Below the pieces are notes generated by a model. It saw only the letters and a program-made list of their open reading frames with translations. It was not told the DNA's origin and did no database searches. A stretch of DNA of 64,000 nt from Stutzerimonas stutzeri (lineage in GTDB: Bacteria; Pseudomonadota; Gammaproteobacteria; Pseudomonadales; Pseudomonadaceae), in the NCBI RefSeq assembly GCF_002909485.1, contig NZ_PPXG01000003.1, forward strand, positions 1-64,000, read 5' to 3'. Within the stretch, counting starts at the first letter, position 1, and each line of letters opens with the position of its first letter. This document shows, piece by piece, positions 3-61,605 of this stretch. Made by a program: the position numbers and the translations under genes.

Positions 3-929
3 GAGTACGGCCGCGTGCGCGTTCAATTCCACTGGGACCGCGAAGGCCAGGCCGACGACAAGACCAGCTGCTGGCTACGCGTCAGCTCGAGCTGGGCCGG
101 CGACCGCTATGGCGGCATCGCCATCCCGCGGGTCGGCATGGAAGTGCTGGTCACCTTTCTCGAAGGCGACCCCGACCAACCGCTGGTGACCGGCTGCCTG
201 TACCACAAGGAACACCAGGTCCCCTACGACCTGCCGGCGAACAAAACCCGCACGGTGTTCAAGACCCTGAGCTCCCCAGGTGGTGGCGGTTACAACGAGC
301 TGCGTATCGAAGACCGCAAGGGCGCCGAACAGATCTACATCCACTCCCAGCGCGACTGGGACGAGAACATCGAGCACGACCGGAAGATCCGCGTCGGCCA
401 CGAACGCCACGACACTGTCGAGGCCAACAGCTACAGCGAATTCAAAGCCGAAGAACACCGCACCACCCACGCTGACCGTAAGACCGAAGTCCGCGCCAAC
501 GACCACCTCACCGTCGGCAACAGTCAGCACCTGAAGATCGGCACCGGGCAGTTCATCGAGGCAGGCAATGAAATTCACCTCTCCAGCGGCTTGAAAGTAG
601 TCCTCGAAGCCGGCAGCGAACTGACCTTCAAGGCAGCCGGCAGCTTTATCAAGCTCGATGCCAGCGGCATCACCATGGTCGGGCCTTTGATCCGGATGAA
701 CTCGGGGGGAAGTCCGGGTAAGGGGGCCGGTGCGGCGCCGGTGTTGCCGGGGCAAGTTAGGGCGGCAGATGCGGATGTGCCTGGGGCTGTGCTTGAACAT
801 CGACTGAAGCAAGCGAGATTCAGCCATACACCGCTAATCGAGTTGTGTCAGAAGCCTCGGGGCGGTACGCCAATGCAATGCCCGCTGACCAACTGTCCTT
901 GTCGTCATGCCGCCCAGTTAGGGAGCTGA
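3..929 (+). CDS. vgrG: VgrG (TssI) spike protein, C-terminal part, cut by window edge
   Basis: This is the 3' end of a type VI secretion spike gene; the frame is open to the left edge and starts with [15 protein letters not shown], the hallmark of the VgrG gp5-like OB-fold region. It continues with the conserved [20 protein letters not shown] segment and the repetitive beta-prism region. VgrG trimers cap the Hcp tube and carry effectors out of the cell. The extreme C-terminus departs from the core and ends in a short Cys-rich tail, CPLTNCPC, a plausible docking element for the adaptor encoded next. It is followed four bases later by the DUF4123 gene, so the genes are probably co-transcribed. 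The N-terminal gp27-like half lies outside the window. Confidence 0.95.
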
Positions 930-932
930 TTG

Positions 933-1754
933 ATGTCTGTACAGATACTCGCAGGGCTTCCCAATCTTTCTACCCCACTCTTCATGCTGCTCGAATTGGA
1001 TGAGCCCCTGCTGCAGCGGATTTACCAGCTAGAGCCTGATCCACGACCGGAAGCTCTGTTTGCCAATACCGAGCTGGGCGCTCATGTCGAACAAGGACCT
1101 TGGCTAATACAACTGGCGCCGGATAGCCCCTCGTTGTCGGCGTATCGCCAAGCGCCGGAGCAATGGCCTGGCGTGTTGTTGAGTTCCGGGCGGCCAGTTG
1201 ATGAGCTGTTGGCTCATCTGCGCGCGATGCTGGTCGTGCAGTTTGAAGGTGAGCGTAAGGGGATACTGCGCTATTACGATCCACAGGTGGCCAGTTACCT
1301 TTTCGCGGCTACCGAGGCCGTTATCACTTGGCTAGGCCCCATCGAGCAGTTGTTCTGGCATGGCGCCACCTGGGCAGACCGCAGCGAGCACATCAGCCAT
1401 TGGCGCAGCCTACGGAGCGAGTCGACCAATCATGGGGCGCCGCCGAAAGGCAAGCTGATACTCGACAGAATGCAGATTGCTGCTCTCGAACGGCAGCAAC
1501 TAGAGGCATTTGCCTATGAGCGCTGGCAGGAGCATTCACAGGCTGAGTTCAACCAGGTTTTGGGCTATCTGCAGCAGGGTCTTGCCTCTGGGTTCGACGA
1601 CGAGAAGAGCCTGGGCGCATACCTCGAAGCCCGGCTCACTTATCCCCAGCACCTAAGCCATCCCCAAATCGCATCGGGCCAGGTGCAGTTTCGTCTGCAG
1701 CAACTGCAATCCTGGCTGGAAGCCACACCAGCCCCCTCGGAGAGTCAAGGATGA
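933..1754 (+). CDS. DUF4123 (Tap/TEC-type) T6SS effector adaptor
   Basis: A 273-residue protein of the DUF4123 family, recognised from its N-terminal part (LELDEPLLQRIYQLEPD, then GPWLIQLAPDS) and its position between vgrG and a large effector. DUF4123 proteins are cytosolic chaperones that load a cognate effector onto VgrG and are not themselves secreted. I chose ATG at 933 rather than the TTG just before it. The stop overlaps the effector start in an ATGA arrangement, indicating translational coupling with its presumed client. The C-terminal third is charged and aromatic without a further recognisable domain. Confidence 0.85.
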   Translation: MSVQILAGLPNLSTPLFMLLELDEPLLQRIYQLEPDPRPEALFANTELGAHVEQGPWLIQLAPDSPSLSAYRQAPEQWPGVLLSSGRPVDELLAHLRAMLVVQFEGERKGILRYYDPQVASYLFAATEAVITWLGPIEQLFWHGATWADRSEHISHWRSLRSESTNHGAPPKGKLILDRMQIAALERQQLEAFAYERWQEHSQAEFNQVLGYLQQGLASGFDDEKSLGAYLEARLTYPQHLSHPQIASGQVQFRLQQLQSWLEATPAPSESQG

Positions 1755-4700
1755 ATGCCAAAGTAGGGAGTCTGTCCGGCAATCCGGCCTGTGAAGCTGG
1801 CAAGCTGATCGTCGAAGTGATTGGCAAAGATCACCCACCGGAACAGCGAGTGGTGATCTATGACGAAACCGATCATGAGCTGCAGGAGTGGCTAACCCAG
1901 CAGGTCAAACAAGAGCTTGTAGCTGATTCTCGGCGGAGCAGCACCCTGCATATCTGGGATTGGCAGCAGCAACCCAAGCGCCATCTCTGGCTGGAGATCG
2001 AAGCAGAGCGCGGCAGCCCCATCCGCGTGCCGCTGATGGATGACACACGCGCTACCCCGCGCCAGCGTGAGCGGCAGTGGAACTGCATCGTCCCTGCAGT
2101 ACCCATGAGCACGATGCTCGGTATCAGCGCCAACCACCAGCATCGTGAATACCCCGTGCATGTGCGCCCCGGCTTCATCTACCTGTTCTATCGCGGCAAA
2201 GTGTGGCGTGAACTGGAGATTCGTCAGGCTGAGGGGCAGGTGACTTATCACGACGTACGCCTGAGTGACTTTCGCAATGGCGACCGCTTTCGAGATGGCG
2301 CCCGCACGGCCAGTGGCAAAGGGCTGAGTGAGATTTGGCTGCCAGCCAGATGGAACAACCGCGCGGCCCCGGATATCGAGATAGGTTATGCCGAGGTGCA
2401 ATGGCCTGCCGTTCGCCTGAACGCTATGGAGCGCAATGCTCGCCTGCGTCGCGCCCGCTGCAATCGCTTAGGCCTGGCCGTGGCCGAACGCAGCTTCGGT
2501 AACACCACTTACCGGGCTTCCAGCCAGCAGCAGGCCTTCTACCTGCAAAATGTCCCCGCCCATCGTCCGCGTGAGCCCGCCCGCGAATGGTTGTTCGATC
2601 AACCGCTCAAGTATCTGCACGATCTGAGCGGCCAGTACCCCGTGCAGAGCCAGCAGTATGCTCAGCAGGTTCATCAACGCCACGAGCGCGGCGAATCCAA
2701 CCCAGGACCAACGCATCCACAGCAAACGCAGGATGACCTACGCCCGGAGACAGGCGCCTGGGCCGTTGAGCTGGGCGACACGCTACAGAACCTCCAGCAT
2801 GTCTGCAGCGCAACCAACGAACGTGAACACTGGCAGGCCGCTGCGGCTGAAACCGACATGCTGGCCACGGTCAAAAAACGCCATATCGCCGGTGTACTGG
2901 TGGTAGATGGCCTCTACCGCATGCGCCACCTGCTGGCGCGCACCAACCAGGCCCAGGCAGTGCTGCAGCTTTGCGCGCAACGGGCCACCTTCCATCCCCA
3001 TCATGCCTCGGCATTGTTGATTCAGCGGATGATGGTTCCACCCCATATCGGCGGGCAAAGCAACCCGCTGCACCGCTTCATCAGCCAGGTCAGCCAAGAG
3101 GGGCGCCAACAGATCGACCTGTGTTCGGGCCAGCATGCTCGCCAGTTGGCCATGACCTGCCTCAAAGCCGCCCAGGACAACCTCGCCGCCTGGCTGGAGC
3201 AGGCAGCCAACCAGCATGCGCTGGGCGACCATTTCTGCCTGGAGGGGCTCGACTACGCCGGCGCCTTCCAGCTTTGCAGCCAGCTATTCGTCTGCCTGGC
3301 GCGCACGGCCGATCAACAGGATCCATTCCTGGCGGCAGGCGATGCACCCCGCAGAAGCGCCGGTAGAACGCTGCTCTGCAAGATTGCGCAAAGCGCCAGC
3401 CAGCCTCTACATCGCATGCTGTGGCCAGAGGCGGACGACGACACCCTGCTCAAGCCCTATCAAGCGGTGCAAACACCGAACAACGGCGAAGGCCATTATC
3501 GTGCCGAAGCGTTGAACCAGGTGGCGCAGCTCAATGCACCGCCCGGCGAAGAGCCGGCGACCCTGGAAGGCAACACGCTCGCAGGATTGATGCAACAGCC
3601 GGACTTCCTGCTCCTGCCTTCCGCCAAAAGCGGCGCCGCCGCACTGATAAACGTATGGGAGAACCTGACCAGCGCCCAGAAGGAGGCGCAAAAAGGGTTG
3701 ACCAGCGCCAGCGCAGGACACCAACAGGCTACGACTGAGAGCAGGCGCAGCCGGGTGGAGGCGCATGACCGTGAGGGTGACCTGCGCCACGAGCAAGAGC
3801 GCGGCAATGTGCTGAAAGAGGAGCTGGGCAAGGAAGCATTCCCTGCCAAGTACCGAATGTATACCAAGGACCTGCAACTGCTGCGCAGCATGCTGCAGCA
3901 GGACTTCGGCGACATGGTGTTCGTGCCCCATAACGCCGTGAACCAGGAGAAATACTACTTCTTCGGTTTGAGCGACCTCCCGGTGTCACCACAGCAAGCG
4001 CGGCAGATCTTTGGCAAGCTTTTGAATCTGGAGGGAAGGCTGCTGGGCCTCAGCGATGAAGTCAGGGCCAATAGGGCCGGCATCGACCAGTTCGTAGAAG
4101 AGCTGCTGCTATTGGCCATCCCCAAGAACCACCGCACCGCCCGCCTGATACGAGAACTGAACCGGCAGATTGCGGAAGAACTGCGTATCCAAAACGACCT
4201 TCAGCAGGCGCGGGAGCGCCGGGAAGCCGCCCGTAGCCGCCTGAGCGAAGCCAACAATACCCTGAAACAGGCGCAAGAGCGGCTGGCCCAACAAGAGCGC
4301 GGCTGGCGCCGAAGCTCACGCGGCGTGCCCAGCTCTAAGGCCTTTCCCGCTGGTGTGTTGATTCTGGAGGTTTTTAATGTGCAGGCGGAGTTCGAGGCTA
4401 GAGATGCAACAATAAGAAATAAAGGTGAATCTAGGTCTGCTGTGGGACTAATCAGTGCAGCAACTGATTTGCTATTAGCCATGGAGTTTCTAGCCAATAA
4501 AGTCGCGCACAACCACCCACGAGTTCAAACATTTCAAAAGCGGATAGTTGATAGGGTGCTCTTCAACCCTGGGTCAGGCCTGCAAAAACTCTTTGGCGGT
4601 CGACTGGTAAGCGTGACCGGCAAACTGGCCTTCCAAACCTTTGCCGGCACGCTCTTCATCGGTATCAGCATTTACGACGCCATGCACGAAGCCAGCCTGG

Positions 4701-36391: not shown

Positions 36392-36557
36392 GGCGAGGGC
36401 GATCCGCTCTACGCTGATGCAGTCGATGCTGTGCGGATGATGTTCGGACTTAACTTTGCTGCGGTTTAGGTCGCCTGCTGGCTTTACACCTGCCAGCTTC
36501 CGCGGCCGCAGCCTTCCGTGCTGCGGCGGAGACGATCCATTTGCCCGAGCAACGGAC

Positions 36558-36899
36558 ATGCGCCAGCACAGACGCTTCAGCTTTCGCCACATAAGCAGCA
36601 TTCAGGTCACCAATCGCTTGAATGGCGAGCCCATGGGCTATGTCGTCGATTTATCGCTGGGCGGGCTGCGCCTGGTTTCCAGCCAGCCGCTGGCTGTAGG
36701 CGGGTGCTACGAGATGGTGCTACACATGCCGGAGCAGGGTGAGCGGGTGCGACAGATCGAGGCTGTGGTGATCTGCCAGTGGTCGCGCAAGGATTCACGC
36801 AGAGACAGCTTTGAAATGGGCTTCGCCCTGGATCGGCCGTCGGCGGACTTCGCTGCCATGGTGGCCAATCAGCTGCCGCGCCGCCGCAGGATCTACTGA
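36558..36899 (+). CDS. PilZ domain protein
   Basis: A 113-residue protein that is essentially one PilZ domain. The c-di-GMP motifs are visible: RQHRRFSF (RxxxR, residues 2-6) and VDLSLGGLRL (D/NxSxxG, residues 31-36). It ends in a basic tail, PRRRRIY. It converges with flhA of the second flagellar system, 24 bp away. A role in tuning motility by c-di-GMP is plausible from location, but flagellar brake proteins of the YcgR type normally have an additional N-terminal domain that is absent here. Confidence 0.8.
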   Translation: MRQHRRFSFRHISSIQVTNRLNGEPMGYVVDLSLGGLRLVSSQPLAVGGCYEMVLHMPEQGERVRQIEAVVICQWSRKDSRRDSFEMGFALDRPSADFAAMVANQLPRRRRIY

Positions 36900-44093: not shown

Positions 44094-44506
44094 GTTGTGA
44101 ACTGTATTTCCTGGAGTCGGTGAACACGGCGGCGATGCCGCTGGCCATTTATGCAGAGCGTTGGCTGGCTGGCACGGGTGTTTTCCGGGCACGGCTCTAG
44201 CGTGCCGCCATCCTAGGCCTGGGCGCGTGAGGGGTTAAATCAAGAGATATCAAATGAGCTTTTTTGAGCTCGTCAGGCGTCCATTGATTTCAATTAAGCA
44301 GAACTGATTGGGTGATTGAGGCAGCGTCCTGATAGCGTGCGCGCACTTGTTCGGAGTGCCGACGAAAGTGCGCTGGGTCGATTGCGAGTCAGAAGCCAAA
44401 AAGACGGCAAACAGTTCCGAAAAATTAAACAGATTTTTTCTTTCGCATTCCGTTGGGCCGCAATTCGAGTAATTGCAGCGGTGCCAGGAAGGCAAGGTGG
44501 GTCACA
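44094..44506. other. Divergent control region fliM / LafK-like gene
   Basis: About 410 bp, AT-richer than the surroundings between roughly 44230 and 44460. It should carry both divergent promoters. No sigma54 site passes inspection with confidence; the closest, GGCACGGCTCTAGC (44188-44201, rightward), has the -24 element but a poor -12. No gene seen. Confidence 0.5.
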
Positions 44507-45910
<1,404 letters not shown>

Positions 45911-51637: not shown

Positions 51638-51913
51638 ATGGAAATCAGCCGGCATTTCAAGCCCGCCCCTGCATCGGCCTCCGAGGCCAGCTCTACCCGG
51701 CAACCCCTCACGCGCCCAGCGCCAGAGGCCGCCGTGCGCCAGGCAGAAACTCTGCCGCTCGAGCAAATGCATGACGCTCTGCGCGCCATGCCAGACGTTG
51801 ATCTGGACCGCGTTGCGGCTATCAAGCAAGCCCTGCAGAACGGCGAAATCTCGACCGATCCGGCCGAGCTGGCGGGTAGCATGCTGGCCTACCATCGTGG
51901 AAGCGATGCGTGA
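51638..51913 (+). CDS. flgM: Anti-sigma28 factor FlgM (lateral system)
   Basis: A 91-residue protein whose C-terminal half has the FlgM motif VDLDRVAAIKQALQNGEIS and ELAGSMLAYHRG. It holds FliA inactive until hook completion and is exported thereafter. It lies 190 bp after fliJ and overlaps flgN by four bases, an unusual place since flgM commonly follows flgA. Confidence 0.9.
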   Translation: MEISRHFKPAPASASEASSTRQPLTRPAPEAAVRQAETLPLEQMHDALRAMPDVDLDRVAAIKQALQNGEISTDPAELAGSMLAYHRGSDA

Positions 51914-52350
51914 ATCAGCGAGACAAGCTGCTAGAGATCGTCGCCAGTGATCTGCAGCAGGATTGCGAAGACTATTTGGCCCTGCGCGATCTGATGCAGG
52001 CGCTTTACGCATTCCTACTCGAGCGCGACAGCCCGGAAATCGATCGACTCAACCTGCAGATCACCACGCGTGTCGAAACCATCGGTGCGCGAGCCCAGCG
52101 TCGGACCAAGGTGCTGGGCGCCTTTCGCCTTCAGCCTGATGCCGAGGGTATGCAGCGTCTGCTGAGCTGCTATCCAGACGAACAAGCCGTGCGCCTGAGT
52201 CAGCTATGGCAGCAGCTTGGTGCGTTGGCTAGTCAGTGCCAGCAGATCAATGAGCGCAACGGCAAGTTGCTCGCCATGCATCACGAGATACTCGGCCAGC
52301 TGCTGGCCGGCAGTCACGATGCACGGCTCTATCAGCCGCAGATGTATTGA
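51910..52350 (+). CDS. flgN: FlgN-like chaperone for hook-associated proteins (lateral system)
   Basis: A 146-residue helical protein starting NQRDKLLEIVASDLQQDCEDY with the FlgN-type C-terminal INERNGKLLAMHHEILGQLL. It chaperones FlgK and FlgL to the export gate. GTG start inside the flgM stop. Confidence 0.88.
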   Translation: MNQRDKLLEIVASDLQQDCEDYLALRDLMQALYAFLLERDSPEIDRLNLQITTRVETIGARAQRRTKVLGAFRLQPDAEGMQRLLSCYPDEQAVRLSQLWQQLGALASQCQQINERNGKLLAMHHEILGQLLAGSHDARLYQPQMY

Positions 52351-52675
52351 GGTCGCGACGTCGATCCACGTACGGCTTTGCTTCTCTCCTCCGCGCGTTT
52401 ATGTCGGCTTTAGCCGGCAGACATGCTCGGCGCTTTCAAAACACTCCCGCACACATGGCGCGTGACGCGATAAAGCGTTCAGGCGCCTGCGCCCTGCTGT
52501 TTATTTGCACCAAGCCTTAAGTGCTACCCCCCTGACCGTCGCCTTTATAGAGAGATGATCCGCCGTTTTGCCGGGCGGAAACGGTATTTCCTCGTTTCCT
52601 CATCTAGCGACCGGGCGGAAGCTCCTCTTCTGCGTAAGAAGAAGAAAAACGCATATAAATCAATTAGTTATGAAT
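52351..52675. other. Leader region upstream of fliD promoter
   Basis: About 325 bp without a gene. It contains GC-rich then AT-rich stretches, and would be the place for activator (LafK-like) binding sites upstream of the sigma54 promoter at 52676; I cannot identify such sites by eye. Confidence 0.5.
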
Positions 52676-57112: not shown

Positions 57113-57985
57113 ATGCAGAAAGTATTAGGTGCGTTCATCATCATCGGTTGCGTGCTGGGCGGCTACGCCATGGCCAACGGCGACATGCGCATGCTCTGGC
57201 AGCCGGCCGAGGTCGTCATCATCGTCGGCGCGGCACTCGGTAGCCTGGTCGTGGGCAATCCGAAAGAAGTGCTGATCGAGATGCTGCATCAGATCAAGGG
57301 TGTGTTCGCCTACCAGCGCCGCGGCGAGGAATTTCAGCGCCAGTTGCTGATGCTGCTTTATGAGCTGCTGGAGATGGTCGATGTCGGCGGCCTGAAGGTG
57401 CTCGACTCGCACATCGAGGAGCCTGAGCAGAGTGACCTGTTCGTGCGTTATCCGCTGATCCTTCAGGAAAAGAACCTGATGGCCTTCATCGCCGACAACT
57501 TTCGCCTGATGGCCATGGGCAAGATCACGGCGCACGAGCTGGAGGGCTTCCTCGAGCAGGAGCTCGAAGCCATGGAGCACGCCCTGCTACAGCCGGCGCG
57601 TTCGCTGCACAAGATTGGCGAGGCGATGCCGGGGTTCGGCATCCTCGCGGCGATCATGGGCATCATCATCACCATGGGCAGCATCGGCGGCAGCGTTGCG
57701 GAAATTGGCGCACACGTGGCGGCAGCTCTGGTGGGCACCTTTCTTGGCATTTTCTTCTGTTATTGCCTGATGGACCCGCTCTCCAATGCCATGAGCCAGC
57801 GCATCAAGACCGAGCTGTCGGCGCTGGAATGCGTGCGCACCACGCTCGTCGCCCATGTCGCCGGCAAGCCCACGCTGCTGGCGGTGGATGCCGGTCGCAA
57901 GCTGATCGAGCAGGACGTCAAACCCGCTTTCCGTCAGCTGGAAAAATGGGTCACCCAGTATGAGGAAGAAAGGGACGCCGCATGA
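57113..57985 (+). CDS. motA: Flagellar stator MotA / LafT (lateral system)
   Basis: A 290-residue inner-membrane protein with four helices (LGAFIIIGCVLGGYAMANG, VVIIVGAALGSLVVGNP, MPGFGILAAIMGIIITMG, AALVGTFLGIFFCYCL). Conserved loop residues KIGEAMPGFG precede TM3. With MotB it forms the ion channel that drives rotation. Overlaps motB by four bases. Confidence 0.95.
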   Translation: MQKVLGAFIIIGCVLGGYAMANGDMRMLWQPAEVVIIVGAALGSLVVGNPKEVLIEMLHQIKGVFAYQRRGEEFQRQLLMLLYELLEMVDVGGLKVLDSHIEEPEQSDLFVRYPLILQEKNLMAFIADNFRLMAMGKITAHELEGFLEQELEAMEHALLQPARSLHKIGEAMPGFGILAAIMGIIITMGSIGGSVAEIGAHVAAALVGTFLGIFFCYCLMDPLSNAMSQRIKTELSALECVRTTLVAHVAGKPTLLAVDAGRKLIEQDVKPAFRQLEKWVTQYEEERDAA

Positions 57986-58920
57986 GAAGCAGAGGCAAGG
58001 GCGGCGCAGGCGGCGAGCACGAGATCATCATCAAGCGTCGCGGCAAGAAGGGCCACGACGACGAGCATGGCGGTGCCTGGAAGGTTGCCTTCGCCGACTT
58101 CACCCTGGCGATGATGGCGTTGTTCATGGTGCTGTGGATCATCCAGCCGCAGATGAACCAGAGCAATCCGGCGTTCGGTGAGCAGGAGAGCAATCCGTTG
58201 GTCGATGGTGGGGCGGGCATCTTCGATGGCACCAGCACCTCACCGCTGGAGCTCGATGGTGTGCCGATCCGGCAGGCGCAGAGCGAACCGGAGCGGCGAC
58301 GTGATGAGAGTGTGCGTGGGGAAGATGAGGCCTCCGTGGAGGGAAGCCGTCGCTACGCCTCGACTGCCGAGCTTCAGGCCCTCGCTGCGCTGATGCGGGA
58401 AGTGGCGGGGCAGGTCGATGCTCTGGCAAACCTGGAAGTGGATGTGGTGCCTCAGGGCCTGCGTATCCTGATCAAGGACGATCAGCAGCGCTTCATGTTC
58501 CAGCGTGGCAGCGCCATCCTCAATCCGCATTTCGCCCAGCTACTCGGCGTGCTGGCGGGTGTGCTGGGCAAGGTCGAGAACAAGCTGATCATCAGTGGGC
58601 ATACCGATGCCACGCCATACCGTCTGCAATCTGGCTACAACAACTGGAACCTGTCTGGCGATCGCGCCTTGCGTGCACGCAACGTGCTGGTGGATGCCGG
58701 TTTGCCGAGTCGGTCGGTGCTGCAAGTGACTGCGCAGGCGGACGTCATGCCGTTGCGTCCCGATGCGCCTGAAGATGGTGCCAATCGGCGTGTGGAGATT
58801 CTCCTACTGACCGATTCGGCCGAAGCGCTCTACAGGGAGCTGTTCGGCGACGCATACGGCAAGGTGCGTTTCTCGGAGAGTGGCGCGCAATACAGCGGGG
58901 AGCGCCAGGAGGGGATCTGA
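57982..58920 (+). CDS. motB: Flagellar stator MotB / LafU (lateral system)
   Basis: A 312-residue protein: short cytosolic Lys/Arg-rich N-terminus, one helix with the ion-binding Asp39 (WKVAFADFTLAMMALFMVLW), a periplasmic linker and an OmpA-like peptidoglycan-binding domain (LIISGHTDATPYRLQSGYNN and NWNLSGDRALRARNVLVDAG). A proton-type stator is likely but not proven. Last gene of the fliD operon. Confidence 0.95.
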   Translation: MRSRGKGGAGGEHEIIIKRRGKKGHDDEHGGAWKVAFADFTLAMMALFMVLWIIQPQMNQSNPAFGEQESNPLVDGGAGIFDGTSTSPLELDGVPIRQAQSEPERRRDESVRGEDEASVEGSRRYASTAELQALAALMREVAGQVDALANLEVDVVPQGLRILIKDDQQRFMFQRGSAILNPHFAQLLGVLAGVLGKVENKLIISGHTDATPYRLQSGYNNWNLSGDRALRARNVLVDAGLPSRSVLQVTAQADVMPLRPDAPEDGANRRVEILLLTDSAEALYRELFGDAYGKVRFSESGAQYSGERQEGI

Positions 58921-58947: not shown

Positions 58948-59430
58948 TCAGCGCTGAGCTACGGTGTGCTCGGCACAGTAAACCTGCTGAGTCTCGACGC
59001 CATAGAGACAGGCGCCGACCTGTTCGAGGGTGATGCGCGCGCCTTTGTGCTTACCATAGAACAGGTTGAAGATCAGCTCGTCATCCAGTCCCGCGGTAGC
59101 TGCGAGGCCATTGATTTCGCCTTCTTCAACCACCAGCCGGGCGCGTCCGAGGAAGTCGGTTTCTACCCGCCCCGAGGCTTCGACAATCGCCGGATTGTTC
59201 CGCGTCATCGAATAAAAGCGGCCCTCCTTGAACACCACGCTCTGACTGATCTGAACCAGCTGTCCATTGCTGAGCAGAACCTGGCCTGTCGAGGCGTAGC
59301 GGCCGTCAAGATTGGCGCTGTAGTTCGTCGTCGTGCCCATTGCCACGAAAGCCCAGAGTGCCAGTGCCGTCGGCACCATCACCCGTAGCACTCGCTTGCT
59401 CGCCGAGCCGGCCTCGGAGTGAATACTCAT
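58948..59430 (-). CDS. ToxS-like membrane partner of the adjacent ToxR-like regulator
   Basis: A 160-residue protein with one membrane helix near the N-terminus (VLRVMVPTALALWAFVAMG) and a periplasmic domain of about 125 residues (YASTGQVLLSNGQLVQISQS, ARLVVEEGEINGLAA). Size, topology and its coupling (ATGA) to an upstream membrane-bound winged-helix regulator recall ToxS, though I see no clear sequence identity. Converges with motB, 27 bp away. Function inferred from arrangement. Confidence 0.6.
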   Translation of the reverse strand: MSIHSEAGSASKRVLRVMVPTALALWAFVAMGTTTNYSANLDGRYASTGQVLLSNGQLVQISQSVVFKEGRFYSMTRNNPAIVEASGRVETDFLGRARLVVEEGEINGLAATAGLDDELIFNLFYGKHKGARITLEQVGACLYGVETQQVYCAEHTVAQR

Positions 59431-60269
59431 CGTAAACATCCTTGAAGTGTTTCGTTCGGGATCGCGTTCACCTGGCTGCGGTGGATCTTCAGCCAGTTGA
59501 CCTGACCATCGTTTCGCAGGCAGCGCAGTTCGTAGAATCCGGGTGACATGTTCACAATCAGCCGACTAGGCCGTGTGCTCAGGCCAGCCACCGAGGCAAC
59601 CAGCAGGCGAGTCTCCTGCATCATCCGTTCCAGCAGCTGCTGGCTCTTTTCAACGTACAGCACTTCTAGCTGGCCAATGGAAAGGGTGTATGTCAGCGAG
59701 CCCTTGGGTGCATGGACGAAGCGATAGCCCAGAGTGGCTATGGCCAGCAGTAGAGCGACGGTGGTGCCCACTACCGTGGGCGAAAGCCAAACGGAACGGC
59801 GTGCTGCGGGCTGCGCGATGTGGATGATCTCAGTGGAGGTCTCTCCTGCTGCGGGCTCGCTAGGCATCGGCAGGTCGGTTGCTGGCGCTTGCTCGCACGT
59901 AACCAGATAGTTCGGGTTGAACAGGTAACCACGCCGCGGCAATGTCTGAATGATCTGACTGTCACTGTCGAACAGTATCTGGCGCAGGGTATAGATCTGC
60001 TGGTTCAGGCTGCCCTGACCAACTACCCGGTCTTCCCAGGCGTGCCGCAGCAGCTCATCTCGGGTGACAACTTCGCCCGGTGTTTGCAGCAGTCGTTCGA
60101 GCACCCTGCTCCCGGAAAAACCGAGGTCGACCTTTTTCACCGCATCTTCAGTGGTCAGTGACAGCTGGTAAAGCGAGCGATCGAAGCGAGCCAGGCAGCC
60201 GTCGCGGCCGCTCTTCAGGAGCGGGCAGATGATGCCATCGGTGGCCTTCCTGGTCAGAGATGAAGTCAT
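59427..60269 (-). CDS. Membrane-anchored winged-helix regulator, ToxR/LafZ-like
   Basis: About 280 residues from ATG 60269. A cytosolic OmpR/PhoB-type winged helix occupies about 45-120 (SRVLERLLQTPGEVVTRDEL, VVGQGSLNQQIYTLRQILFD, IIQTLPRRGYLF); after a Pro/Ser linker a single helix at about 163-184 (SPTVVGTTVALLLAIATLGY) leads to a periplasmic part of about 95 residues. This is the ToxR/CadC design. A transmembrane regulator (lafZ) is known in the E. coli Flag-2 locus, so it may control these lateral genes. Confidence 0.8.
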   Translation of the reverse strand: MTSSLTRKATDGIICPLLKSGRDGCLARFDRSLYQLSLTTEDAVKKVDLGFSGSRVLERLLQTPGEVVTRDELLRHAWEDRVVGQGSLNQQIYTLRQILFDSDSQIIQTLPRRGYLFNPNYLVTCEQAPATDLPMPSEPAAGETSTEIIHIAQPAARRSVWLSPTVVGTTVALLLAIATLGYRFVHAPKGSLTYTLSIGQLEVLYVEKSQQLLERMMQETRLLVASVAGLSTRPSRLIVNMSPGFYELRCLRNDGQVNWLKIHRSQVNAIPNETLQGCLR

Positions 60270-60563
60270 AGAGCCCTGAAAATTTAAACGAGTTGTCTGT
60301 GATCTAGGGCAAGGCTTTGCCATGAACTAGTCGGCAGTATATTGGCGTCGTTTTTTTGAACTTACAAGGGAACTAATCGGGCTGATAGTTGTATTCTATG
60401 ATGGCTAGATGACATCATCATTGCTGTCAGGATAGATTCTGCATACGTTAAAAAAGCCTGTAACCCTTGGCCTGCGGGGCTTTTCAGACTGCTCGAGGAT
60501 TTTTTGAAAGCTATTTTCCTCCGCTAACCATTGGTCGGATGGACATGTCGCAGTTTCCCGGAA
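60270..60563. other. AT-rich region between ToxR-like gene and flagellin terminator
   Basis: About 290 bp, markedly AT-richer than its surroundings. It should carry the leftward promoter of the ToxR-like gene. A weak hairpin AAAAAGCC...GGGCTTTT (60451-60484) is present. No gene I would support. Confidence 0.5.
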
Positions 60564-60644: not shown

Positions 60645-61484
60645 TTAGCCCAGCAGGCCCATGACCATGCTCGGCATTTGGCCGGCTTGTTTGAGCATCG
60701 AGATGCCGGACTGCATCAGCATGCTGTTCTTGGTCATGTTGGCGCTCTCCGAGGCGAAGTCGGCATCCATGATGCGACCCTTGGCCATCTCGGTGTTGTC
60801 CTTCATATTCGCCAGGTTGTTGGCGGTGTGGTTCAGACGGTTGACCGAGGCACCGAAGGCTGCGCGGGTCTTGCCGACTTGGTCCAGCGAGGTGTTCAGC
60901 GTATCGATGGCAGCGTTGGCACCGGTGGTCAGGTCCAGGGTGGCGATGTCTGTCGTCAGCGCGGTCACAGTGGTCGCGATGTCGGTAGTGGCGGCCGCCA
61001 GGGTGTAAGTCTCTGCCTGGGAGGCACCGATCTGGAAGGTAACGTCAGCTGCCAGCTTGCCGCCTGTTGCGAACAGCGCGTCGCCGGCGTAGGAAGTGTT
61101 GTCGGTGATGTTCTGCAGCTCGGCGACCAGCTCGGTGTATTCGGCCTGGACAGCTTCGAGGTCCTTGTCGGCATTGGTGCCGTTGGCCGCTTGAGTGGCC
61201 AGATCCTTCATGCGCTGCAGAATGTCGGTTGCTTCGTTGAACGCGCCTTCTGCGGTCTGCAGCATCGACACGGCATCGCTGGTGTTGCGCATGGCAACGC
61301 CCATGCCGCGGCTCTGAGCATTCAGGCGCGTGGCGATCTGCAGGCCGGCTGCGTCGTCGGCAGCGCTGTTGATGCGCAGGCCGGTACCCAGGCGCTGCTG
61401 GTTGGTGCCCAGCGCATTGTTGGTCTTGCTCAGGTTGGTCTGAGTAACCAGCGAGGAATAGTTGGTATGAATGGACAGGGCCAT
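60645..61484 (-). CDS. lafA: Lateral flagellin LafA/FliC
   Basis: A 279-residue flagellin, short compared with typical polar flagellins, indicating a minimal D2/D3 region. N-terminal D0/D1: SIHTNYSSLVTQTNLSKTNN and RINSAADDAAGLQIATRL; C-terminal D1/D0: TRAAFGASVNRLNHTANNLA and KNSMLMQSGISMLKQAGQMP. The middle (about 150-200) is Ala/Thr-rich. A candidate sigma28-type promoter lies in the 120-bp leader but is not convincing. Terminated by a strong hairpin. Confidence 0.95.
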   Translation of the reverse strand: MALSIHTNYSSLVTQTNLSKTNNALGTNQQRLGTGLRINSAADDAAGLQIATRLNAQSRGMGVAMRNTSDAVSMLQTAEGAFNEATDILQRMKDLATQAANGTNADKDLEAVQAEYTELVAELQNITDNTSYAGDALFATGGKLAADVTFQIGASQAETYTLAAATTDIATTVTALTTDIATLDLTTGANAAIDTLNTSLDQVGKTRAAFGASVNRLNHTANNLANMKDNTEMAKGRIMDADFASESANMTKNSMLMQSGISMLKQAGQMPSMVMGLLG

Positions 61485-61605
61485 GAGTAAATCCTTCGTG
61501 CTAAGTGGGCTGTAGGAGCTGGCTTGACTGCCTGCTGAAAAGGTAAGGCGACAGCACTTCGGGAAGGATTAAACCCTGACGTCAAATTTTTTTGTTTTTC
61601 TCGAT

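Follow-up and report, generated by a model that had tools for sequence, protein, structure and literature searches.

The question raised by this locus is what a pair of overlapping genes, one of them encoding a membrane-anchored winged-helix protein, does between the stator and flagellin genes of a lateral flagellar cluster. P. stutzeri and P. mendocina have been reported to form lateral flagella on solid media. The window (the whole 64,000-nt stretch of DNA analysed here) is part of a 4.8-Mb genome of the genus Stutzerimonas. Its part from approximately 36.4 kb onward is occupied by one lateral-type flagellar cluster, delimited by Pfam and NCBIfam matches, position and E. coli annotation; according to open reading frames recognised by eye, the cluster continues for about 9 kb beyond the window. 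It comprises flhA, fliP, a sigma54 activator, fliEFGHI, fliD, fliS, fliK, fliL, fliA, motA/motB, the pair, lafA, flgA, flgB and onward, several of these names being assigned by position or E. coli annotation. An earlier note on this DNA had proposed a regulator pair in the motB-flagellin interval of a lateral flagellar locus, and both open reading frames and the flanking lafU and lafA were confirmed, with the minus-strand pair (lafZ and its partner) sitting between lafU/motB and lafA. The genes concerned are as follows.

44453..45910, + strand: sigma54-dependent activator (context); many NCBIfam sigma54 activators match, the best being FlbD at 352 bits, under the FlbD cut-off
57982..58920, + strand: lafU, lateral MotB-type stator gene (context); 45 per cent match to annotated E. 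coli lafU
58948..59430, - strand: ToxS/VtrC-like partner gene; alignment of 41, model, fold matches to VtrC and ToxS, hydropathy
59427..60269, - strand: lafZ-like gene; Trans_reg_C, ToxR as best solved match, hydropathy, model, invariant Cys
60645..61484, - strand: lafA, lateral flagellin (presumed target; context); NCBIfam lat_flg_LafA_2, 388.8 bits against a cut-off of 365

The activator is probably LafK, a name that follows from its position. The pair itself is best read as a sensor of the lateral flagellar system built on the co-component plan of VtrA/VtrC and ToxR/ToxS, a reading to which we give a probability of about 0.7.

The lafZ open reading frame spans 59427-60323; relatives align with a start at its in-frame ATG at 60269, from which residues are numbered here. 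LafZ comprises a winged helix (residues 14-125, approximately; Pfam Trans_reg_C, E 3.7e-13), a linker, a likely membrane helix (about 160-185) and then a predicted periplasmic domain. Hydropathy analysis gave one hydrophobic 19-residue peak, with residue 160 as its first, and the structural model (mean pLDDT 81.6) has a helix at 164-185. In profile searches of the PDB, ToxR was the closest solved structure by sequence (E 1.8e-15), with CadC at 1.7e-8. By fold, four ToxR-DNA entries matched the winged helix with Z scores of 15.4-16.3 over 103-106 residues (top match Z 16.3, 104 aligned, 1.8 A), compared with 14.4 for the best response regulator, although the DNA-binding domain of ToxR solved by NMR reached only Z 11.5, under many response regulators. 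The proposal that the first protein is a ToxR-like membrane winged-helix regulator therefore stands, its winged helix being nearest to ToxR by sequence and by fold. No other LafZ match occurs in the genome at E 0.001.

The periplasmic part of the LafZ model consists of two strands (192-198, 201-207), two helices (210-219, 221-230), three strands (235-242, 245-251, 257-263) and a final helix (272-279), which gives the order bb-a-bbb-a. In the available text on ToxR bound to ToxS, the periplasmic domain is described as a hairpin followed by one helix, a sheet of three strands and a last helix at the C-terminus (PMC10624426), and the predicted LafZ order equals that of this published ToxRp in the complex, strand and helix order alone being compared (PMC10624426). 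Two cysteines, C250 and C278, are invariant in 41/41 sequences, and the 280-residue protein ends two residues after C278.

The partner open reading frame spans 58948-59439, and its start at 59430, from which residues are numbered, aligns in relatives. It has a single hydrophobic 19-residue peak with first residue 14, a likely N-terminal membrane helix. The model predicts an eight-stranded barrel with a helix between strands five and six at a mean pLDDT of 73; in ten-residue blocks, confidence is 82-90 over residues 41-110 and 87-88 over 131-150, falling to 65-77 over 111-130 and to under 50 in the membrane segment. Searches of the partner against Pfam, NCBIfam and PDB sequences gave no family above cut-off; the ToxS family was absent from the Pfam hits of 41 partner members at E 1 and a ToxS chain from the PDB hits of the partner at E 10, and recognisable sequence similarity to ToxS was not found. 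Fold comparison gave a different picture. Foldseek placed VtrC at ranks 1-5 (best E 5.1e-3, probability 0.99-1.00), with no match at E 0.001 or better, and VIA-align put V. cholerae ToxS at the top (Z 10.2, 118 aligned, 3.2 A), with VtrC in second place (9.8) and V. parahaemolyticus ToxS in fifth (9.1). The fold by itself does not decide the matter, since no Foldseek match reaches E 0.001 and unrelated barrels, namely designed ones and those of small lipoproteins, score Z 8.6-9.2 in VIA-align, about one Z unit under the top. The second protein had been proposed to be ToxS-like, and the predicted barrel, with VtrC and ToxS as top matches, agrees with this; a lack of structural similarity to ToxS, named in the earlier note as what would refute it, was not borne out by the fold comparison of the predicted partner. 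C141 and C152 are invariant in the alignment of 41, lie within the last hairpin and, from the strand positions in the model, would face each other over it.

The two genes are joined by a short overlap.

59427..59430, - strand: stop/start overlap of lafZ and partner, 4 nt, ATGA; [A/G]TGA in 44/44 loci

The overlap reads ATGA in 28/28 loci of the first genome set, and the 16 further Pseudomonas loci, among which L056 and L057 are near-duplicates, contribute 15 ATGA and one GTGA; the count leaves out L035-L050 as genomes already counted, and L067, L068 and L073-L075 are copies of the window. If the partner began at an alternative start 9 nt earlier, its overlap with lafZ would be 13 nt. The overlap, read in the earlier note as translational coupling, is constant in these loci. 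Purifying selection acts on both genes, with dN/dS values of 0.07-0.12 (partner) and 0.16-0.22 (lafZ) in six pairwise comparisons each, and because both proteins are conserved, the pair is not a product of chance. Furthermore, the order lafU-partner-lafZ is kept in 40/40 Pseudomonadaceae loci (L021-L028, L035-L066; several genomes occur twice), and lafA comes next in 38 of these, the other two being a contig end (L040) and a locus with no lafA found in the flank examined (L055).

Systems of this architecture, represented by VtrA/VtrC and ToxR/ToxS, were defined as "co-component" systems in the available text of Kinch 2022 (PMC9214523). They resemble the pair in (i) a regulator whose ToxR-type winged helix is followed by a single membrane helix, a likely one in LafZ, and by an alpha/beta domain in the periplasm, predicted in LafZ, and (ii) a gene downstream, in many cases overlapping, whose product is an eight-stranded barrel anchored in the membrane, likewise predicted here. 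The sections of that paper available state that regulators of this kind, VtrA excepted, retain a disulfide cysteine close to the C-terminus, in the stretch that the following gene commonly overlaps (PMC9214523); ToxR has such a cysteine, like C278 of LafZ. The pair shows most of the testable defining features: a CadC/ToxR-like winged helix in the regulator, cysteines near its C-terminus (C250/C278, a putative disulfide pair), an adjacent downstream same-strand gene that overlaps it and, on predicted structure, an anchored eight-stranded barrel, the periplasmic fold of LafZ being predicted as well. VtrC and ToxS differ from the partner in that no sequence similarity between them was found and in that both partner cysteines lie in the last hairpin. 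In addition, the pair described here belongs to a lateral flagellar locus of Pseudomonadaceae and not to a virulence locus.

MarT/FidL and YqeI/YqeJ of Enterobacterales have the same two-gene design, with an 8-nt overlap between yqeI and yqeJ. In disulfide-containing families near FidL, the bond is said in the available text to join the first and last strands (PMC9214523), and YqeJ has cysteines near both ends, whereas those of the partner are both at the end (141, 152). A profile comparison (hhalign) of the partner with YqeJ gave a probability of 0.2 per cent, under the 0.6 of an unrelated FlgA control; neither the first-last strand disulfide nor the sequence similarity of the FidL/YqeJ family was found in the partner. 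The responses of YqeI include flagellum synthesis, with YqeJ as associated protein, in Table 1 of PMC10269533, the part of that paper used here, so a link of such pairs to flagella is not wholly new. The available text of PMC9214523 also mentions a Pseudomonas cluster and an overlapping pair of P. fluorescens C1 whose location is not given, and the partner family described here may or may not be among these Pseudomonas members. The strings 'flagell' and 'lateral' do not occur in the main text of PMC9214523, nor do 'flagell' or 'Pseudomonas' in the available text of a 2026 ToxS preprint (PMC13042144). The ToxR/ToxS analogy is better supported than sequence alone could make it; the co-component kind is known and its place here is unusual. 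Such systems have been portrayed as switches of virulence in enteric pathogens. Here, a pair of this kind is a constant neighbour of the flagellin gene in the lateral loci of Stutzerimonas and the P. mendocina group.

The distribution of the pair follows that of the lateral system. A search of 97 relatives at E 0.001 gave the partner in 28 genomes (27 from the same genus, including the window, and one from another genus of the family). At E 1e-60, 29 of the relatives have lafU, which was taken to indicate a lateral system; the partner occurs in 28/29 lafU-positive and 0/68 lafU-negative genomes. Named relatives with the pair (32 loci) are Stutzerimonas species, the Pseudomonas mendocina / chengduensis / alcaliphila group and a few others. 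In a class-wide sample, the partner profile matched 1/369 genomes, that of the window itself. Among Enterobacterales and Vibrio, the lateral loci covered were those of E. coli. Searches for Flag-2 or Vibrio-type loci beyond the Pseudomonadaceae, by LafW in 1 and in 138 genomes and by the LafA family NF033376 in 132, returned nothing, and as searches run without a positive control these are uninformative on absence. One genome found by the LafA and lateral FliA families, G368, has a lateral-type FliA/MotA/MotB region with no lafZ or partner within 20 kb at E 0.001, and its other region holds a lone flagellin only.

These patterns bear on the possibility that the pair is a genuine co-component sensor whose main target lies elsewhere, reading envelope or lipid stress for genes outside the lateral flagellum. 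Known relatives do govern diverse targets, as the available text of PMC9214523 indicates. However, a regulator of unrelated genes would hardly be expected to occur in 28/29 genomes with lafU and 0/68 without it, to lie beside lafU in 40/40 loci and beside lafA in 38, and to share an upstream pattern that occurs in the genome only at lafZ and lafA (see below); we consider such a remote target improbable and retain the reading of a sensor belonging to the lateral flagellum.

The sole lafU-positive genome without the partner, G040, carries two lafA copies and a LafZ open reading frame of 286 residues, and no partner match was obtained even at E 10 in 12 kb. In its partner-free lateral locus (L071, G040:C11:384500-396500, 183-3573), other sequence occupies the space up to lafU. 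A second case is the LafZ of E. coli Flag-2 (PMC6993521), a transmembrane winged-helix regulator beside lafA in the Flag-2 locus, as is LafZ in the lateral locus here. E. coli lafZ is on the strand opposite to lafA, whereas both genes are on the minus strand here. The two proteins align only in their DNA-binding part (35 per cent identity over 102 residues), and comparison of the sequences does not support orthology of the periplasmic part of LafZ with that of E. coli LafZ. An annotated same-strand gene after lafZ was found in none of the five lafZ-carrying regions among six E. coli regions. With lafA and LafZ but no partner in G040, and with LafZ by itself in the five E. coli loci, the partner is not an absolute requirement, and E. 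coli Flag-2 and G040 offer partner-free cases for comparison.

The 'VR2' cargo gene between lafW and lafZ, known from the available text of PMC6993521, was considered as the missing partner and rejected for the E. coli loci examined. Two of these have inserts at lafW-lafZ, one a RelE/ParE-type plus HTH pair and the other an HTH fragment, both on the strand opposite to lafZ. The RelE/ParE-type toxin and HTH gene lie at 1287-1937 of L033 (NZ_CP121087.1), and a two-gene toxin/antitoxin at this place is already published for E. coli 042 (PMC3032704, available text).

The solitary LafZ of G040 and the five E. coli loci would also fit a partner that is an envelope accessory, such as an assembly or stator helper with a common small-barrel fold, LafZ acting alone as in E. 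coli, and the nearly equal scores of other barrels to those of ToxS and VtrC point the same way. Such a helper would not account for the overlapping genes in 44/44 loci, for VtrC occupying Foldseek ranks 1-5 or for an adjoining regulator of the ToxR type, and it seems to us quite unlikely. For the co-component reading, comparison with other lateral clusters, which the earlier note had suggested, gave a divided result: the pair is present in 40/40 Pseudomonadaceae loci, whereas E. coli Flag-2 LafZ is solitary in five.

Bacterial Flag-2 papers name LafZ, in their available sections, as a regulator or as a toxin/antitoxin neighbour and mention no partner there (PMC6993521, PMC7526173, PMC3032704), and the corresponding text of a paper on Pseudomonas sp. 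M1 names LafA and neither LafZ nor ToxR (PMC13111069). No description of a ToxS-like partner in a lateral locus was found in the literature, which was covered mostly as titles and abstract starts and so gives a weak negative. The suggestion that such a partner is undescribed in lateral loci is consistent with these sources and with the five E. coli loci; its novelty does not extend to the co-component kind, which is itself published (PMC9214523, in the text available).

Regulation of lafA by the pair is addressed by two upstream elements.

60339..60355, - strand: A-tract plus GACGCCAATAT element upstream of lafZ (candidate operator or promoter core); one of two genome matches
61573..61591, - strand: A-tract plus GACGTCAGGGT element upstream of lafA; the other of two genome matches

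An A-tract plus GRCGYCARNNT pattern matches the 4.8-Mb genome at exactly two places, one ahead of lafZ and the other ahead of lafA, and a reversed control has no match; as the pattern was drawn from these two sites, which match by design, only its rarity elsewhere is informative. The core [AG]CGYCARNAT occurs in 44/45 lafZ upstream regions of 250 nt, compared with 0.34 on average and at most 3 in shuffles that preserve base composition only, the loci being related and partly duplicated (L056/L057; several genomes under two ids) and the counts hence not independent. Only L007 has a lafZ upstream region without the element, and in L071 it lies at -197 versus -61 to -83 elsewhere. Upstream of lafA, a related element behind an A-tract was found with the strict pattern in 17/49 regions, all from Stutzerimonas-group loci; excluded in advance from this count were L001 and L067, which both cover the region of L068, as well as L069, the E. 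coli loci, hits short of the lafA start and upstream regions under 100 nt. The strict lafA element was found in none of the mendocina-type loci L051-L066 and not in L028, and the window copy L068 deviates from it by one base. Ten loci (L025, L037, L041, L042, L047, L051, L054, L059, L060 and L065) have two lateral flagellin genes with differing upstream regions; the strict element precedes one lafA copy only in L037, L041 and L042 and neither copy in the other seven.

In the mendocina-type lineage, GGCACAAGACTTGC, a site of sigma54 consensus form, lies 29 nt before the element in 15/45 lafZ upstream regions, all among 16 mendocina-type loci. These sites (L051-L065) are 95-99 nt before lafZ, and none was found in Stutzerimonas loci. 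The lineages thus appear to have different promoter types at lafZ, with the downstream element retained in both. A sigma54 pattern allowing one mismatch gave 33 matches in the window versus 32.1 expected, which is chance, and use was made only of the exact site before fliD and of the conserved mendocina-type lafZ site. A FliA pattern allowing three mismatches gave 38 matches versus 23.5 expected, yet most of the listed places were outside flagellar promoters and it was set aside.

Two roles are conceivable for the element common to lafZ and lafA, that of a LafZ operator and that of the core of a LafS-type promoter, and its presence at both genes hints at lafA control. In the second case, it would be a promoter of LafS (lateral sigma28), and lafZ would be a late gene with feedback or other targets, the pair not binding at lafA. 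Part of the Stutzerimonas loci have a TAAG-like -35 before the lafZ element, spaced close to the FliA consensus, and a similar A-tract block is found upstream of E. coli lafA. However, the element is kept in 15/16 mendocina-type loci despite the different sigma54-type site 29 nt upstream, which is not what a sigma28 promoter would lead one to expect. We regard the LafS promoter as a possible, rather doubtful explanation; it concerns the regulatory step only and is compatible with the co-component reading. For direct control of lafA by LafZ, the odds are about even. The suggestion of the earlier note, that the pair could read envelope or surface-contact signals and set lateral flagellum expression, has this common element as its sole evidence.

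Under the co-component reading, LafZ would cross the inner membrane once, with its ToxR-type DNA-binding domain inside and the predicted alpha/beta domain outside, where the partner would be a membrane-anchored, lipocalin-like eight-stranded barrel. The two periplasmic domains may form one barrel-based receptor, LafZ completing the barrel, and the invariant cysteines would make one disulfide in each protein. An envelope ligand or condition (amphiphile, lipid, redox or pH) would alter the stability or dimerisation of LafZ, which would then act at the element common to the lafZ and lafA upstream regions and so control the lateral flagellin and itself. The fuller proposal, that a dedicated co-component receptor gates the flagellum, with the barrel reading an envelope lipid, redox or surface-related cue and LafZ passing it to lafA and to its own promoter, while in E. 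coli Flag-2 a solitary LafZ whose sensor domain has been replaced would suffice without a partner, is tentative and has, in our estimate, somewhat less than an even chance. If lafA control is true, the pair would be a concrete candidate for how cells decide on lateral flagella and a small laboratory system for what a ToxS-like barrel senses outside the gut.

Two minor observations concern other parts of the cluster. Two small open reading frames before fliD (about 51638-52351, + strand) resemble, by eye only, flgM (anti-sigma28) and flgN. At the cluster end, beside flhA, lies a PilZ-domain gene (36456-36899, + strand; Pfam E 1.4e-7), a possible c-di-GMP input to the lateral cluster.
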